A DNA stretch of 43,721 bases from an uncultured Eubacteriales bacterium. Lineage in GTDB: Bacteria; Bacillota; Clostridia; Oscillospirales; Ruminococcaceae. Location: contig ONMZ01000012.1 of the NCBI GenBank assembly GCA_900319075.1, positions 1-43,721 on the forward strand, given 5' to 3'. The notes below the pieces were generated by a model, which saw nothing but the letters and a program-made list of their open reading frames with translations, made no database searches and was not told the DNA's origin. Of this stretch, positions 19,913 to 27,101 are shown piece after piece; positions within the stretch are counted from its first letter, which is position 1, and the number at the start of each line of letters is the position of its first letter. The translations under genes and the position numbers were made by a program.

Positions 19913-21004
19913 TCAAAAGTTAGGATAATCAAGCATATGGTTGAGAATAGCGATATTCAGCGCAGCCTCCACCGCAGGCACTGCCCTTGGCACGATGCAT
20001 GGGTCATGTCTTCCCTTTATCTCCAGTGTTTCATTTTTCATTGCAGAATAATCCACTGTTTCCTGGGGCTTTGAGATAGACGGTGTAGGCTTTACAGCCA
20101 CACGCAGGGTTATGGGCATTCCGCTTGAGATGCCGCCAAGGATCCCTCCGTGGTTATTGGTCTTTGTTACAACGTGTCCGTTGTCGTTCACATAAAACTC
20201 GTCGTTATTTTCAGAGCCTGTAAGCTCTGCGCTTGCAAAGCCTGCTCCGAATTCAAGTCCCTTTACTGCGGGGATACCGAAGATAAGCTGTGCGATGGAA
20301 TTTTCCAGACCGTCGAACATAGGTGAGCCGATCCCTGCGGGAACGTTTATTGCGATAGCCTCAATAACACCGCCAACGCTGTCTCCGGCTTCTCTGGCTT
20401 TTTTTATCTCCTTTTTCATCTCGTTTCCCTGAACGTCTATAATAACAGGGAAATCCTTGTCCCAAAGTTCTCTTATATCGTCCTTTGAGGTGTTTATAGC
20501 ATCAAAGCTCTTATCCTGTATGCCGTGTATCTGTGCGATATGTGCGCCTATATATATCCCTCTTCTGCGAAGTATCTGCTGTGCAACTGCTCCTGCAAAG
20601 CAAAGGGGCGCTGTGAGCCTGCCGGAAAAATGTCCGCCCCCACGAAAGTCGTTAAAGCCCCTGTAACGCAAAGCGCCGGTATAATCCGCATGACCGGGTC
20701 TTGCAAGCTTTGAAAGTCTGGAATAGTCCTGAGAATGCTGGTCGGTGTTTGCGATCATGGCGCAAATAGGCGTGCCGGTGGTCTTTCCGTTATAAAAGCC
20801 CGACACTATCCGGGGAATATCCTTTTCACTGCGTGGGGTAGTAAGACCGTCCTTTTTGGGAGCTCTTCTTGCCATAAACTTATATATCTCGTCAATATCA
20901 AGGCTCTCCCCTGCAGGGATATTATCCATGCACACACCTATGGCCTGTCCATGGCTTTCTCCGAATATTGAAAAGGTTATCTTATTGTTCCATGTCGACG
21001 ACAT
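19913..21004 (-). CDS. aroC: chorismate synthase
   Basis: A 363-residue AroC, the last shared enzyme of aromatic synthesis, converting EPSP to chorismate with reduced flavin. Family signatures are visible: FGESHGQAIGVCMDNIPAG at the start, RPGHADYTG, and FRGGGHFSGRLTAPLCFAGA. The C-terminal RHDPCIVPRAVPAVEAA is also typical. GGAGG precedes the ATG. It follows aroA by 29 bp. Confidence 0.97.
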   Translation of the reverse strand: MSSTWNNKITFSIFGESHGQAIGVCMDNIPAGESLDIDEIYKFMARRAPKKDGLTTPRSEKDIPRIVSGFYNGKTTGTPICAMIANTDQHSQDYSRLSKLARPGHADYTGALRYRGFNDFRGGGHFSGRLTAPLCFAGAVAQQILRRRGIYIGAHIAQIHGIQDKSFDAINTSKDDIRELWDKDFPVIIDVQGNEMKKEIKKAREAGDSVGGVIEAIAINVPAGIGSPMFDGLENSIAQLIFGIPAVKGLEFGAGFASAELTGSENNDEFYVNDNGHVVTKTNNHGGILGGISSGMPITLRVAVKPTPSISKPQETVDYSAMKNETLEIKGRHDPCIVPRAVPAVEAALNIAILNHMLDYPNF

Positions 21005-21033: not shown

Positions 21034-22260
21034 TTATTTCTCAACAGTAATATCCCCGCCCAGGCTTTTATACACCCGGAAAAAGTCGGGATAGGATTTT
21101 TCAACGCACTGTGCCCCCAAAAGCGTTACGGGCGCTGTACTTCTCGTTGCTGCCACTGCCGCTGCCATAGCTATCCTATGGTCATTAAAGCAGTCCACGG
21201 TGCCTCCGTTAAGGCTTTGCACTCCCTGTATCTCCAGAAAGTCCTCTCCCGGAGTGACTTTACCCCCAAGGGCATTCAGACAGCTGCTTATGGCGCTGAG
21301 CCTGTCGCTTTCCTTGATCCGCAGCCTTGCCACGTTGCTTATACGGCTTTTGCCATCACAAAAGCTTGCAAGCACTGCAAGTATCGGCACAAGATCGGGG
21401 ATATCCGAACAATCAAGCTCAAAAGCTTTCAGCCCGCCATTTCTATTATACACTATTTCTCTGCATATTTCAACAATTTTTTTATCCCCCTGGGAAGATT
21501 TTTCGTCAAGCCCCAGAATATCCACATCAGAGCCCAGAGAATTTGCCACGCAAAAGAACGCCGCCTGGGAATAATCCCCCTCAACGGAGGCATCAAAGCC
21601 ATTCATCTCTCCGCCCTTTACAGCATATCCCCCTGCCGTTTCTTCCACCCTTACGCCGCATTTTTTAAGGCAGCTTGCGGTTATATCCACATACGGGCGT
21701 GATTGGAGGGGAGAGGTAAGTGTTATCCTGCTTTCGCCCTTTAAAAGTGCCAGTGCAAATATCAGCCCGGTAACGAACTGAGATGAGATATCTCCCGGGA
21801 TACGGTATTCTCCGCTTTTAAGCTTTCCTTTCACGGTAAATGGCATTGTCCCTTGATAGTCAAACTCCGCTCCGTGCTTTGGAAGCTCCTCAAGATAGGG
21901 TGTTATGGGTCTTTGGGGCAGCTTTCCCTGCCCTAAGAACGTAGTTTCCACCCCAAGGGCACACGCAACGGGGATAAGGAACCTAAGGGTCGAGCCTGAT
22001 TCGCAGCAGTCTATCTCCGCTTTTGCAGGCACCTTTTCAATGCCCCTTATGAGCGCAGTATCGCCCTTTATATCTATCTTTGCCCCAAGGGCTCTCATGG
22101 CGTTTACGGTGGCGGTTATATCCTTTGAAAGGCTTAGGTTTTCCACTTTGCCGGTGCCTTTTGCCAGCGCCGCAGCTATCACAAGTCTGTGTGCCACGCT
22201 CTTTGACGGTGGAACGCTTACCTCACCCTTGAGTTTTTTAGGACGTATAGTAACTACCAT
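21034..22260 (-). CDS. aroA: 3-phosphoshikimate 1-carboxyvinyltransferase (EPSP synthase)
   Basis: A 408-residue AroA, adding phosphoenolpyruvate to shikimate-3-phosphate. It begins VPPSKSVAHRLVIAAALA, has ESGSTLRFLIPVA, the LPQRPI segment, a GDISSQFVTGLI strand and the C-terminal FNDHRIAMAAAVAA. All substrate-binding residues seen are standard. The ATG at 22260 lies inside the end of the DUF3592-like gene (23-bp overlap), so translation is likely coupled. Confidence 0.96.
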   Translation of the reverse strand: MVVTIRPKKLKGEVSVPPSKSVAHRLVIAAALAKGTGKVENLSLSKDITATVNAMRALGAKIDIKGDTALIRGIEKVPAKAEIDCCESGSTLRFLIPVACALGVETTFLGQGKLPQRPITPYLEELPKHGAEFDYQGTMPFTVKGKLKSGEYRIPGDISSQFVTGLIFALALLKGESRITLTSPLQSRPYVDITASCLKKCGVRVEETAGGYAVKGGEMNGFDASVEGDYSQAAFFCVANSLGSDVDILGLDEKSSQGDKKIVEICREIVYNRNGGLKAFELDCSDIPDLVPILAVLASFCDGKSRISNVARLRIKESDRLSAISSCLNALGGKVTPGEDFLEIQGVQSLNGGTVDCFNDHRIAMAAAVAATRSTAPVTLLGAQCVEKSYPDFFRVYKSLGGDITVEK

Positions 22261-22774
22261 TGTGTTCGTTTCTCCATTGTTCCTGTTTTTTCTTTTCGTT
22301 GTGCACTGACCTTATGACGCATATGCACACTATACCCATCACCACAGACAGCACGATAAGGACTATCCGGGCAGCCGTGAAGTATTCCAGATCTCCATCG
22401 AGATAATAATTATCGTGGTCGTAGGGGTCATAGTGTATCAGAATCCTGTCCCCTTTATCGAAATCCGAGCCTCTGCTTTTAATAACATCGAGGCCGAAAT
22501 CGCTGCCCTTTTCAACCTCTATCGTCAGCAAAGTCTTGATATAGTGGTTGCCGCCCGTTACCACCTCTTTGTCCGTCACCAAGGCATATGCCTTCCCGGT
22601 ACACTCGGATTTCTGCGCCTTTGCGACATCGACCAACGATACAATTATCAGAAATGCCTCAAAAACCAGCACCAACCACATACAGATACGCTTGGCTCTC
22701 AGCCTTTTGCCCATTTCGTCCTTTTCTTTTTTGATACGTTCTTTAAGGCGCTTGTTATACTTTGATTTTGACAA
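22238..22774 (-). CDS. small membrane protein, DUF3592-like
   Basis: A 178-residue protein with a basic N-terminal tail, one membrane segment at about 29-48, an extracytoplasmic beta-rich part of about 85 residues, a second segment at about 133-152 and a charged tail. It resembles the DUF3592 pattern (two TM segments with a sheet between, YDPYDHDNYYLDG). Function unknown. The reading frame opens at TTG 22774 with a weak site; the ATG at 22714 has AAAAGGA six bases before it and may be the true start. It sits between GNAT and aroA in the shikimate operon. Confidence 0.6.
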   Translation of the reverse strand: MSKSKYNKRLKERIKKEKDEMGKRLRAKRICMWLVLVFEAFLIIVSLVDVAKAQKSECTGKAYALVTDKEVVTGGNHYIKTLLTIEVEKGSDFGLDVIKSRGSDFDKGDRILIHYDPYDHDNYYLDGDLEYFTAARIVLIVLSVVMGIVCICVIRSVHNEKKKQEQWRNEHNGSYYTS

Positions 22775-22840: not shown

Positions 22841-23320
22841 TCACAGCTCTTTTATATATCTCACGTCACAGGCAAAATGGTCTGTTTTCACTATCTTCTC
22901 AAAGGTACGCTCAAATCCGTACTTTTCATAAAATCTCTGAGCCGCCTTCATATTTTCCAGCGTTTCCAGATAGCATCTGCGGTAATGCTTTGCGGCAAAG
23001 TCCAGAGCTGTCCGCATAAGCAGCCCTGCTGCGCCTGTGCCCCTTGCCTTTGGAAGGCAATACATTTTCTGAAGCTCACACACTCCATCTGCACCCTTCA
23101 GCTTTCCTATGCCTGCTCCGCCGACTATCTCTCCCGATTCCTCCTGCGCCACCCAGTATCTGCTGTCACGGCGGGCATAAACTTTGGAAAAGCACCCCAG
23201 ATCGGGGTCTGTCCATGCTGTGCCTGCATGGTCCGCTCCGAACTCCACAAGGCAGCTTCGTATGATATTTTCCACCGCCCTGTCGTCCTCGGGCGTTATC
23301 TCTCTGACTATGTATCCCAT
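22841..23320 (-). CDS. GNAT-family N-acetyltransferase
   Basis: A 159-residue acetyltransferase. The acetyl-CoA site is read in LQKMYCLPKARGTGAAGLLMRTAL (Q/R-x-x-G-x-G/A), followed by the CYLETLENMKAAQRFYEKYGFE end of the fold. The substrate is unknown. It lies between aroB and the DUF3592-like gene, so it is expressed with the shikimate genes. The site before the ATG is weak, so coupling is likely. Confidence 0.85.
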   Translation of the reverse strand: MGYIVREITPEDDRAVENIIRSCLVEFGADHAGTAWTDPDLGCFSKVYARRDSRYWVAQEESGEIVGGAGIGKLKGADGVCELQKMYCLPKARGTGAAGLLMRTALDFAAKHYRRCYLETLENMKAAQRFYEKYGFERTFEKIVKTDHFACDVRYIKEL

Positions 23321-23348: not shown

Positions 23349-24458
23349 TTACATCTTATCTATTATTTCCCCTATCTGCTCACGGCTTATTTGTTTGCCG
23401 TACTGGTTTTCTCCAAAGCACATCATTTCGCCGATCTGCTTTTGGAAAACGAACCTGAGCTTGCCTTCCCGGACTTTTTTATCGGTATAAAGCTTATCCA
23501 CCAGCTTTTGTTTATCAATATATCCGGGGATACTTGTGGGAAGCTGTGCTCTTTGGCAAAGGTCTTGCACCCTTGCCACATTTTCAGGTGAGATATATCC
23601 CAGTTTCTCTCCCAATTTTGCCTGTGCACAAAGGCCTATTGCCACAGCCTGTCCGTGGAGCAGCTTATAGTCCGAAACGGTCTCTATGGCTCTGCCCACC
23701 GTGTGCCCCAAATTGAGCACCTCTCTCAGTCCGCTTTCCTTTTCGTCCTGCATTACCACCTTATATTTCACCCGGCAGTTATGCTCGCAGATATACTCGC
23801 ACACCTGACGGTCACAGTCAAAGACCTTTTCGATGTTCTTTTCAAGATACTCAAAAAGCTCTATATCCCCAAGGCAGCCGTGCTTTATGGTTTCCGCAAG
23901 GCCGCTGGATATTTGCTCACGAGGCAGGGTCTTCCAGGTGGAAATGTCGATGTAGACCTTTTTGGGCTGGTTGAACATTCCTATGAGATTTGTGGCAAGA
24001 GGGGTATCCACCGCTGTTTTTCCCCCCACCGAAGCGTCCGCAGCGGCAAGCAGGGTCGTTGCATAATTCACAAAGGGCACTCCTCTGCCAAAAGTGCCTG
24101 CGGTAAAGCCTGCAAGGTCTGTCACCACGCCTCCACCAAGGGCTATCACGGCGCAGTCACGGCGAAACCCCTTTTCCAGCATGGAATCTTCAAGAAACTC
24201 CTTCATCTGTCTTGTTTTGGACTTTTCACCGTTTGGGATAACAAACATTTCCGCATTAAAGCCTGCCTCCCGAAGACTTTCAAGCACCTTTGCGGCATAC
24301 AGCTTTTCCACCCTGTCGTCGGTTATAACAGCAAGCCTTTTTCTGCTGCCGGCAAGCCCTTGGCTCAGATCCCGGGCAAGGGTGCCATAAAGCTCGTAAC
24401 CTATCTCGATGTCATATGAGTCGTCAACGACTCTTTTCAGTGTAACATTAAAGTTCAT
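23349..24458 (-). CDS. aroB: 3-dehydroquinate synthase
   Basis: A 369-residue AroB converting DAHP to 3-dehydroquinate, NAD- and metal-dependent. Motifs seen are LAVITDDRV, VIPNGEKSKT, VIALGGGVVTDLAGFTAGT, TTLLAAADASVGGKTAVD, the metal His in LAETIKHGC, LNLGHTVGRAIE and the LLHGQAVAIG segment. GGAGG precedes the ATG. It is the second gene of the operon after aroF. Confidence 0.97.
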   Translation of the reverse strand: MNFNVTLKRVVDDSYDIEIGYELYGTLARDLSQGLAGSRKRLAVITDDRVEKLYAAKVLESLREAGFNAEMFVIPNGEKSKTRQMKEFLEDSMLEKGFRRDCAVIALGGGVVTDLAGFTAGTFGRGVPFVNYATTLLAAADASVGGKTAVDTPLATNLIGMFNQPKKVYIDISTWKTLPREQISSGLAETIKHGCLGDIELFEYLEKNIEKVFDCDRQVCEYICEHNCRVKYKVVMQDEKESGLREVLNLGHTVGRAIETVSDYKLLHGQAVAIGLCAQAKLGEKLGYISPENVARVQDLCQRAQLPTSIPGYIDKQKLVDKLYTDKKVREGKLRFVFQKQIGEMMCFGENQYGKQISREQIGEIIDKM

Positions 24459-24536
24459 AGCAGCCTCCCGTCAGCCAAATTTCCGTTTTCTATTATAACA
24501 ATTTTCCTCAGCCTTGTCAACAAACGCCCGTAATTA

Positions 24537-25559
24537 CTAAGCCTCGTCAACATCCTTTCCCATGAAGCCGGCAAGGGCTTTTATCTTTTCCATTACGCCG
24601 CAAAACGCCTTGGGCGTAAGCTGCTGAGCGCCGTCGCTGAGGGCGCTTTTAGGGTCACAATGGACCTCGATCTCCAGTCCGTCGCAGCCTGCGGCAACTG
24701 CTGCCAGGGACATTGGCTCAACCAGCTTTACAAGGCCTGTTGCATGGCTGGGGTCCACCACCACCGGCAGGTGAGATCTTTGTTTAAGCAGTGCCACCGC
24801 CGAGATATCAAGGGTATTTCTTGTCATTGTCTCAAAGGTGCGAATACCTCTTTCGCAGAGGATGACCTTGGAATTTCCCTCGCTCATTATATACTCTGCA
24901 CTCATAAGCAGCTCCTCCAGGGTGCTTGAAAGTCCCCTTTTCAGCAGCACCGGCTTGTCGCAGCGTCCAAGCTCTTTGAGCAGCTCAAAGTTCTGCATAT
25001 TCCTTGCCCCCACCTGTATCACATCCACATCTGTGAACATATCCATATGTGCAAGGGACATTATCTCGGTAACTACCGGCAGGCCTGTTTCCTTTTTAGC
25101 TTTGAGCAAAAGCTTTATGCCCTCTTCTCGCAGTCCCTGGAACGAATAAGGCGAGGTCCTTGGCTTGAACGCACCTCCACGGAGCATTGTTGCACCTGCC
25201 TGTTTGCAGGCTATCGCCGTTTCCATAAGCTGTTTTTCGCTTTCCACAGAGCAGGGTCCTGCGATTATCTGTGTTTTGTTTCCCCCTATCTTTCTGGAGC
25301 AAACATCTATCACCGTATCGTCGGGGTGGAACTTTCTGTTTGCGTTTTTGTAAGGCTCCTGCACACGCTGAACGCTCTCCACACAGTCGTTTGCCATTAT
25401 CGCCTCTGTGTCCATATGCAGCGTATCCCCGATAAGCCCTATTATTGTGGAATGGACACCCTCTACAAGGTTTGTCTTTACCTTGCAGCTGTCCTCCAGC
25501 CATCTGATAAGCTCCCCTACCTGCTGAGGAGCTGCTGTGTTTTTCAGTATGATTACCAT
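24537..25559 (-). CDS. aroF: 3-deoxy-7-phosphoheptulonate synthase (DAHP synthase) with N-terminal regulatory domain
   Basis: A 340-residue DAHP synthase of the Thermotoga/Bacillus type, the entry enzyme of the shikimate pathway (PEP plus erythrose-4-phosphate). Residues 1-70 are a ferredoxin-like regulatory domain that in relatives binds Tyr or Phe. The barrel reads IAGPCSVES, LRGGAFKPRTSPYSFQGL, PVVTEIMS, IQVGARNMQNF, LLKRG and PVVVDPSHATG. The start is the ATG at 25559 with GAAAGGATGG upstream; the frame is open further but that part crosses the attenuator hairpin. It is the first gene of the operon, and a leader with an aromatic-rich peptide precedes it. Confidence 0.96.
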   Translation of the reverse strand: MVIILKNTAAPQQVGELIRWLEDSCKVKTNLVEGVHSTIIGLIGDTLHMDTEAIMANDCVESVQRVQEPYKNANRKFHPDDTVIDVCSRKIGGNKTQIIAGPCSVESEKQLMETAIACKQAGATMLRGGAFKPRTSPYSFQGLREEGIKLLLKAKKETGLPVVTEIMSLAHMDMFTDVDVIQVGARNMQNFELLKELGRCDKPVLLKRGLSSTLEELLMSAEYIMSEGNSKVILCERGIRTFETMTRNTLDISAVALLKQRSHLPVVVDPSHATGLVKLVEPMSLAAVAAGCDGLEIEVHCDPKSALSDGAQQLTPKAFCGVMEKIKALAGFMGKDVDEA

Positions 25560-25573
25560 TTTGACCATCCTTT

Positions 25574-25617
25574 CAAAAATAAAATGACCGCAGCCTTGTG
25601 GGTGCAAAGCTGCGGTC
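25574..25617 (-). terminator. attenuator hairpin before aroF
   Basis: Perfect nine-base arms GACCGCAGC/GCTGCGGTC (25586-25594 and 25609-25617) with a 14-base loop, followed on the minus strand by ATTTTATTTTTG. It stands 15 bases before the aroF start and 27 bases after the leader peptide stop, where a transcription attenuator is expected. Confidence 0.7.
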
Positions 25618-25644
25618 TGAACTACATATCAAAGCTATGAAAGC

Positions 25645-25761
25645 CTAACTGCAATATCTTCCCAAAACACTCTTTTGCACACCACCGAAAAGCCCTGACC
25701 AGAAAAAGCCAAAGCTGAAAAAGAAGTATGTAAAGACTGCTGAGATAATTACAGTGAACAT
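25645..25761 (-). CDS. aromatic-rich leader peptide of the shikimate operon
   Basis: A 38-codon frame with AAAGGA nine bases before the ATG at 25761 (an in-frame ATG at 25779 adds six codons but has no site). Residues 10-21 read FTYFFFSFGFFW: seven Phe, one Tyr and one Trp in twelve. That resembles the enterobacterial pheA leader. Ribosome stalling here when Phe-, Tyr- or Trp-tRNA is short could free codons 26-30 (GGTGGTGTGCAAAAG) to pair with the terminator loop region 25598-25609 and block termination (inference). A small one-pass membrane protein is the alternative reading. Confidence 0.65.
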   Translation of the reverse strand: MFTVIISAVFTYFFFSFGFFWSGLFGGVQKSVLGRYCS

Positions 25762-25794
25762 CTTTTTTGTTCCTTTCATAAATATGATAGATAA

Positions 25795-25823
25795 AGGATA
25801 GCACTTCGCTTGATTTTTGTCAA
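25795..25823 (-). promoter_or_regulatory. promoter of the shikimate operon
   Basis: TTGACA (25823-25818), 17 bp, TATCCT (25800-25795) on the minus strand, just after the hflX stop codon. Confidence 0.75.
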
Positions 25824-25832
25824 GTTAATTTT

Positions 25833-27101
25833 TTATGAACTGCTGCTTATTTTATACCCCTGCACCAGATGATATACCTTTGCATCCACCAAAGCATCGG
25901 CGAGCACTCCCTTTTCGGTATACTCCTCGCTGAAAACTTTTCCGTCCCTGCGGATAGTATTTAAAAGCCCTGCCTTATCAAAGGGCAGCAGCAGCTTACA
26001 GCGCACGCTGGATCGGGGAAGGGCATTTTGCACCGCCGCAAGCAGCTCATCAATGCCCGTGCCGTTTTTTGCAGACATTTTCACGGTGTTTTCACTATGG
26101 GAAATGTCAAGGCTGTCTATATATGGCACCTTGTCGCACTTGTTCAGCGCCGTGACCACCGGTATCCCTGCACAGCCAAGCTCTCCCAGCAGCTGGTTTG
26201 TGACAGTGATCTGCTCCTGACAATCCTGTGCGGAGGCATCACAGACATGGATTATAACGTCTGCGTTTGCAGCCTCCTCAAGGGTGGATCTGAACGCCTC
26301 CACAAGGTGATGGGGCAGGCGTCTGATAAGACCGACCGTATCCACCAGCACCACCTCTCTTCCGTCGGGGAGGGTGATGGCTCTTGAGGTAGTTTCAAGG
26401 GTGGCAAAAAGCTTGTTTTCCGCCAAAACTCCTGCCTTTGTAAGGGTATTTAGCAGGGTGGATTTGCCCACGTTGGTATACCCCACGATGGCAGCCACAC
26501 GGACATTGTCCTTTTTTCGCCTTTTTCTCAGCATATCCCTGTGCTGCGCTGTTTTTTCCAGCTCACGGGAAAGCTTTTCGATGCGGCTTCGGATATGTCT
26601 TTTGTCCGTTTCCAGCTTACTTTCTCCCGGGCCCCTTGTACCTATCCCTCCGCCCAGACGGGAAAGATCGGTGCCCATTCCCGCAAGTCTTGGCAGACGG
26701 TACTTATTCTGGGCGATCTCCACCTGCAGCCGTCCCTCACGGGTCTTAGCACGCTGTGCGAAAATATCCAGTATAAGCATGGTCCTGTCGATAGCAAAGA
26801 CCCCGCACACATTTTCGATATTTCTGATCTGGGTGGCGGTAAGCTCACAGTCAAAGACGATCCTGTCCACAGCCAGCTGACTGCAAAGCTCGGCTATCTC
26901 CTCAAGCCTGCCTGCACCGATACAGCTGGCGCTGTCGTAGGAATGGCGCTTTTGCACCACCCTTGCCACCACCTGTCCTCCTGCGGTATCCACCAGCTCC
27001 TCCAGCTCGTCAAGGGACTGATCTACGTCATAGTCCCCCAGATCCACCGCTGCCACAAGGACATTTTGTACATTTATCTCATTTTCACTTATCTGCTCCA
27101 T
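25833..27101 (-). CDS. hflX: ribosome-associated GTPase HflX
   Basis: A 422-residue HflX. The N-terminal HflX domain (about 1-195) has the GAGRLEEIAE and LDIFAQRAKTREGRLQVE segments, with a GGGIGTRGPGESKLE loop. The GTPase domain (about 200-370) shows GYTNVGKSTLLN (G1), DTVGLI (G3) and NKCD (G4). It binds the large ribosomal subunit and splits stalled ribosomes in studied species. It is preceded by a consensus promoter with a palindrome over the start of transcription. Confidence 0.95.
   Translation of the reverse strand: MEQISENEINVQNVLVAAVDLGDYDVDQSLDELEELVDTAGGQVVARVVQKRHSYDSASCIGAGRLEEIAELCSQLAVDRIVFDCELTATQIRNIENVCGVFAIDRTMLILDIFAQRAKTREGRLQVEIAQNKYRLPRLAGMGTDLSRLGGGIGTRGPGESKLETDKRHIRSRIEKLSRELEKTAQHRDMLRKRRKKDNVRVAAIVGYTNVGKSTLLNTLTKAGVLAENKLFATLETTSRAITLPDGREVVLVDTVGLIRRLPHHLVEAFRSTLEEAANADVIIHVCDASAQDCQEQITVTNQLLGELGCAGIPVVTALNKCDKVPYIDSLDISHSENTVKMSAKNGTGIDELLAAVQNALPRSSVRCKLLLPFDKAGLLNTIRRDGKVFSEEYTEKGVLADALVDAKVYHLVQGYKISSSS

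Follow-up and report, generated by a model that had tools for sequence, protein, structure and literature searches.

The aroF gene in the window, the whole stretch of 43,721 nucleotides analyzed here from an uncultured Ruminococcaceae bacterium, is very probably controlled by a classical ribosome-mediated transcription attenuator that uses Phe and Tyr codons, with Trp optional. A sequence-only reading of this DNA had proposed a classical leader-peptide attenuator, and that core claim is supported by conserved codons, the hairpin, and matching between the two strands of the putative antiterminator (regions 2 and 3 below). The parts of the device, their conservation, this matching, and the position of the aromatic codons were obtained directly from the sequences.

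A leader peptide and a terminator-like hairpin precede aroF

All attenuator parts were found within 25586-25823 on the minus strand, as follows.

25795 to 25823, minus strand: leader promoter TTGACA-17-TATCCT with an extended -10 (TG), matching the consensus at 10 of 12 positions
25771 to 25776, minus strand: leader ribosome-binding site (SD), AAAGGA
25645 to 25761, minus strand: leader peptide ORF, 38 codons plus TAG, peptide MFTVIISAVFTYFFFSFGFFWSGLFGGVQKSVLGRYCS
25722 to 25736, minus strand: region 1 (TCTTTACATACTTCT), inside the VFTYFF codons, predicted partner of region 2
25672 to 25686, minus strand: region 2 (GGTGGTGTGCAAAAG), leader codons 26-30, predicted 5′ strand of the antiterminator
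25598 to 25617, minus strand: region 3 (GACCGCAGCTTTGCACCCAC), 5′ arm and loop of the terminator and predicted 3′ strand of the antiterminator
25586 to 25598, minus strand: region 4, 3′ arm of the terminator, followed by a T-rich tail

The promoter, the 38-codon frame with its ribosome-binding site, and the nine aromatic residues within residues 10-21 had all been pointed out beforehand, and each was confirmed on the minus strand. The -35 box (TTGACA) occupies 25823-25818 and the -10 box (TATCCT) 25800-25795, with a spacer of 17 nt. Residues 10-21 of the peptide read FTYFFFSFGFFW, and the run lies at 25734-25699. An hflX-like GTPase gene (25833-27101, minus strand) is located upstream and ends nine bases before the leader -35 box. 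The hairpin and T run described just before aroF are also present, at 25617-25586, where 13 pairs are followed by ATTTTATTTT. Folding of 25570-25790 gave a z of -6.2 relative to 200 shuffles. Codons 26-30 had been proposed to pair with the terminator loop; the antiterminator stands, whereas the quoted pairing of GTGCAAAAG with CTTTGCAC as one unbroken helix does not, and the predicted core is instead GUGGuGUGCAAA with UUUGCACCCAC, containing one bulged U.

The absence of a visible T-box from the leader was borne out by an Rfam scan at the gathering score, in which the leader matched no family and the only match in the window was a tRNA elsewhere. Four weak leader matches appeared at a low threshold, the best with an E of 0.11; these lie far under the cut-offs and were dismissed as noise.

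The leader is conserved in the genus and exceeds chance expectation

We searched 61 genomes and obtained an aroF match in 51, including 29 genomes of the genus. AroF is 82-86% identical to the nearest titled loci (uncultured Clostridiales, Clostridia, and Ruminococcus assemblies), 73% identical to that of R. bicirculans, and 68% identical to that of R. albus, which makes Ruminococcus, broadly defined, the most likely genus. The type-1 aroF occurs in 28 of the 29 genus genomes, and the leader is present at all 28 of these loci. The 29th genome, G008, has only the aroF paralog (60% identity), which is without a leader. At L026 and L031, which belong to two further genera of this family, neither an aromatic leader nor a T-box was found.

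Each locus was scored on the SD-bearing short ORF that ranked best within 500 bases upstream of aroF, the score being its highest number of aromatic residues in any 12. A score of at least six was reached at 28 of the 30 closest loci (all 28 from the genus, neither of the two from other genera) and at 59 of 79 titled loci, a set that overlaps the unnamed set and from which one of 80 was dropped because only 171 bases precede its aroF. The same score was found at 15 of 24 other family and order loci, with second copies counted and including L135, a possible false positive that directly follows two tRNA genes. Among the controls, this score was reached by 1 of 14 aroF paralogs, by 16 of 1330 dinucleotide shuffles, and by none of the 133 reverse strands. 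With a strict terminator added, the counts were 16/30, 41/79, and 13/24 for the three sets of loci, and zero for the 14 paralogs, the 1330 shuffles, and the 133 reverse strands. Terminators in the 28 genus leaders passed the strict finder in 16 cases and a perfect-stem scan in 18; of the 10 leaders that the latter missed, nine (all but L017) are predicted to fold into a mismatched hairpin. The leader promoter matched the consensus at 10 or more of 12 positions in 22 of the 28 genus loci, compared with 3.4% of shuffles. An SD-like stretch lies 5′ of the chosen leader start in 28 genus loci, the starts having been picked partly for the SD.

Region 1 (GTCTTTACATACTT) is almost unchanged over the 28 genus leaders. 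The peptide has FTYF in 28 of 28 and VFTYF in 26, and the codons beneath are nearly as uniform: the first Phe is TTT and Thr is ACA in all 28, Tyr is TAC in 26, Val is GTC in 25, and the last Phe is TTC in 23. In aroF itself, a single codon was used by 26 or more of the 28 genomes at 0 of 10 invariant Thr sites, 0 of 11 for Val, 0 of 3 for Tyr, and 1 of 6 for Phe. To judge from these counts, region 1 is constrained as RNA, because its codons are near-frozen while invariant sites in aroF vary theirs. The sequence-only reading had set against its own proposal a pattern of synonymous variation with no hairpin, and this was not seen in region 1. The alignment of relatives that it had called for showed that both the 3′ hairpin and the aromatic codons persist, with each region 2 matched to its own region 3.

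Invariance of the FTYF segment, including the non-aromatic Thr, is also what might be seen if the leader encoded an arrest peptide, in which nascent VFTYF and the residues that follow stall the ribosome on a ligand rather than at a shortage of tRNA. We regard this as very improbable, since the invariance extends to the nucleotide level, where pairing of region 1 offers a reason for it, and since the peptides of other families differ and have mainly their aromatic content in common.

Regions 2 and 3 are matched to each other

In the 28 genus leaders, the 2:3 duplex formed from each leader's own regions averaged -19.19 kcal/mol, compared with -15.34 (sd 0.64) after swapping and -11.15 with region 2 shuffled, and 0 of 20000 permutations were as good. 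Regions 2 and 3 co-vary between clades, with GUGUGCAAAA opposite UUUGCAC in one case versus GGUAUGAAAGC opposite GCUUUCGUAUU in another. We repeated the comparison on 71 distinct leaders whose region 1 is not of the genus type, picked by a score of at least six aromatics plus a strict terminator and including some close kin. Their own 2:3 duplexes averaged -16.53, compared with -10.84 (sd 0.32) when swapped, again with 0 of 20000 permutations as good, and -10.38 when shuffled; measured against shuffles of the same leader, 48 of the 71 ranked within the top 5% and 23 did not. Pooled tests such as these overstate significance, because relatives are not independent.

The 1:2 duplex averaged -8.50, stronger than with shuffled region 2 (-5.82, sd 0.39). 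Region 1 varies so little that exchanging region 2 between genomes did not weaken this duplex (7193 of 20000 permutations did as well), and shuffles are the one comparison in its favor. With no ribosome on the full transcript, all 28 leaders were predicted to form 1:2 together with 3:4. When a mask ended just before region 2 and the transcript ended at region 3, masked folding gave 2:3 in 28 of 28, and masking of region 2 gave 3:4 in 28 of 28. For a transcript ending at region 3 with no ribosome, 2:3 beat 1:2 in 8 of 28 leaders. For the full transcript at equilibrium with a stalled ribosome, 3:4 beat 2:3 in 24 of 28; antitermination would therefore have to depend on kinetics, as a matter of timing. 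Where a stall would permit 2:3, 261 of 679 codons are aromatic, compared with 32 of 412 elsewhere, a contrast drawn from relatives that are not independent. By prediction only, the aromatic codons therefore sit where a stalled ribosome would cover region 1 and spare region 2.

From this arrangement we infer ribosome stalling, a response to amino acids, and actual termination. Transcription would start at the leader promoter, and a ribosome would translate the 38-codon leader. If charged tRNA-Phe (or tRNA-Tyr) were short, the ribosome would stall in the aromatic run, covering region 1 and leaving region 2 free. Region 2 could then pair with region 3 before region 4 is made, no terminator would form, and aroF would be transcribed. 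If charged tRNAs were sufficient, or if the leader were untranslated, regions 1 and 2 would pair (or the ribosome would pass over region 2), leaving region 3 to pair with region 4, and transcription would stop.

The attenuator probably acts on aroF first of all

The gene directly behind the leader encodes a DAHP synthase, and its start is most likely the ATG at 25559. It is followed on the same strand by other genes of the shikimate pathway.

24537 to 25559, minus strand: aroF, DAHP synthase with an N-terminal ferredoxin-like domain (PF00793, PF18152), the putative controlled gene
24492 to 24520, minus strand: promoter match TTGACA-17-TATAAT, 12 of 12, between aroF and aroB
23349 to 24458, minus strand: aroB, 3-dehydroquinate synthase
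22841 to 23320, minus strand: GNAT acetyltransferase in the cluster
22238 to 22774, minus strand: small cluster protein without a Pfam match
21034 to 22260, minus strand: aroA, EPSP synthase
19913 to 21004, minus strand: aroC, chorismate synthase

A DUF4364 protein gene follows aroC on the same strand. Starvation for aromatic tRNAs had been proposed to open the whole aroF-aroC operon, a claim that we do not retain, as a promoter match of 12/12 sits between aroF and aroB. In the source genome aroF is probably the gene chiefly governed by the attenuator; a promoter match does not by itself prove that transcription starts there. Transcription of the downstream genes probably also starts at a promoter of their own, which would make the first committed step of the shikimate pathway the main target of the attenuator, and aroB through aroC may be transcribed independently of it.

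The arrangement differs among relatives. In 51 of the 99 loci with enough sequence, aroB is directly behind aroF, and it was not found there in the other 48. A promoter match of at least 10/12 lies between the two genes in 26 of the 51 loci with direct aroB. These 26 comprise all 21 loci with the genus-type leader, representing about 14 genomes if equal gaps mark one genome in two collections, and five others. The aroF-aroB gap is at most 67 bases in 23 of the remaining 25 loci, and in families with such tight gaps the attenuator may govern more than aroF.

Aromatic leaders and T-boxes at aroF across the class

We examined a class sample, an even draw of 148 genomes of which 107 had an aroF match. 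One locus was examined in each of 100 genomes, the best match except in G159, and seven were left out: G140, G154, and G189, whose matches begin only at about residue 90, together with G092, G093, G198, and G068. The aroF start was extrapolated for a few of the other loci (such as L192, L274, and L275). An aromatic leader with a score of at least six was present at 49 of the 100 aroF loci, in 26 of 48 families. An Rfam T-box was found at nine loci in seven families (47 of the 51 leaderless loci were scanned) and at none of the 44 leader-bearing loci scanned out of 49. Neither device was found at 42 of the 100 loci, with nine of the 100 unscanned for T-boxes; L212 and L264 have T-box-like motifs by a crude pattern without an Rfam match. 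No sampled locus has both a leader and a T-box. The design had been presented as exceptional for a Firmicute, and this does not hold among its kin, where aromatic leaders outnumber Rfam T-boxes by 49 to 9. In other families of the order and class, T-boxes precede aroF without a leader of six or more aromatics at L129, L130, L198, L218, L221, L224, L255, L257, L260, and L261, where L129 stands before one aroF copy of G038, from the order sample.

Phe and Tyr occur in all 28 genus leaders and in 49 of 49 class leaders, and Trp occurs in 18 of 28 and 14 of 49, respectively. Of the three control codons named in the sequence-only reading, Phe and Tyr are therefore upheld and Trp is not essential.

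Leader peptides differ strongly between families, as illustrated by MKNFMFAYEYFYFYFYFTLKNKVKAIRAAII in L117 and MASRSMTAKEFFFYFPGYYYFSTGYFCCKKSDTMRLKRPALG in L203. This bears on the possibility that the ORF product is a small hydrophobic membrane protein acting in its own right, the hairpin being an ordinary terminator or processing site. The peptide is indeed hydrophobic and similar in sequence across the genus, and it has no Pfam match, which is a weak indicator at 38 residues. Such a protein would leave unexplained why synonymous positions in region 1 are nearly frozen, why the aromatics, the place before aroF, and the 2:3 matching persist outside the genus while the peptide diverges, and why aroF paralogs are without the leader, and we find this explanation extremely improbable.

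The motif TGTGYTGC occurs in region 2 of 9 of the 71 non-genus-type leaders, compared with a mean of 0.09 after shuffling, and its common presence is only suggestive of a single ancestry of the leaders. The leaders carrying it come from several families; the peptide there reads CC, CA, or CV, and they are L115, L118, L119, L188, L195, L201, L202, L206, and L209. In the phylum outside the class, a leader was found at 8 of 28 loci from a phylum sample, which were taken from among the best-scoring matches and not drawn evenly. The eight are L280, L281, L283, L284, L286, L291, L301, and L303.

The source genome has 13 T-box matches at E ≤0.001, including one before trpE (L277, contig C21), and one of its two pheS-family loci (L279) has a T-box. 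At its pheA, trpE, and pheS-family loci, no SD-bearing short ORF reached six aromatics per 12 residues, the maximum being five. The tRNA sensors of the trp and aro genes thus seem to differ in this genome. Contig C22 carries a second aroF with 60% identity (L002, L276), preceded by a prephenate dehydratase gene (PF00800) and by an ORF that is ispF-like by eye. This copy has a plain promoter by eye, and no leader was found there.

The T-box matches in this genome, together with the T-boxes before aroF in some other class genomes, are what could be cited for a T-box or riboswitch that binds tRNA or a metabolite directly, with the ORF incidental. The Rfam scans described above, at this leader and at the 44 class leader loci, gave no such match, and the uORF signal is far beyond that of shuffles, so that we give this account next to no weight. 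We consider it somewhat more likely than not that the Phe and Tyr attenuator of aroF is old and widespread in the class (probably Clostridia), was inherited or regained in many families whose peptides differ, and serves in place of a T-box at this gene.

Comparison with known systems

Firmicutes are usually portrayed as relying on T-boxes and TRAP where aromatic amino acids are concerned, and attenuators of this design are known from E. coli, where leader peptides containing control codons bring pheA, pheST, and trp under ribosome-mediated attenuation. To control the enzyme at the entry to the shikimate pathway, many class members may rely on ribosome stalling at mixed Phe and Tyr codons. Because aroF is served by two tRNA-sensing devices that were never together in the sampled loci, an exchange between T-box and leader can be tested, and aroF leaders could be used directly as codon sensors in organisms for which regulatory tools are scarce. 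In the accessible portions of the literature searched, we found no account of an aroF leader in Ruminococcus, in its order, or class-wide, and the available parts of PMC11109978, PMC4448216, PMC4833913, and PMC1262725 describe none from Ruminococcus or its order. The class-wide extent of aroF leaders thus looks undescribed, whereas the attenuation mechanism itself is already known, with precedents in C. glutamicum and candidate uORFs in Acholeplasma and in a survey that includes C. novyi.

The E. coli pheA, pheST, and trp attenuators, which are named in the available text of PMC11802643, control other operons, whereas the leader described here precedes the first shikimate enzyme and mixes Phe with Tyr codons. 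Closer in its target is aroR-aroF of C. glutamicum, a leader-peptide attenuator of a DAHP synthase gene (Neshat et al. 2014; PMC11802643, PMC4046766). From the description in the accessible parts of these reports, it resembles our system in placing a Phe-Tyr-Phe leader peptide before the DAHP synthase gene, with transcription reportedly increased under Phe limitation; it differs in belonging to an Actinobacterium, in having only one Phe-Tyr-Phe, and in reportedly not responding to Tyr. The Acholeplasma uORFC-13-1 motif combines a uORF of at least one Phe codon with an intrinsic terminator before aroF, and attenuation was predicted for it (PMC8632094). It comprises 24 representatives from one genus and environmental sequences, and the portions of that paper available to us do not report it from Ruminococcus or its order. 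We liken it to the Ruminococcaceae leader by description. A survey of five genomes, one of them Clostridium novyi, listed two candidate Phe/Tyr uORFs linked to shikimate genes, as in our case (PMC6429828); the genome and gene are unspecified in the survey text as available. Finally, His-leader attenuators have been predicted in the B. cereus group, Eubacteriales, and Erysipelotrichales (PMC9413887). In the accessible text of that study, these Firmicute leaders are, like ours, predicted classical attenuators, and they differ from it in serving histidine operons.
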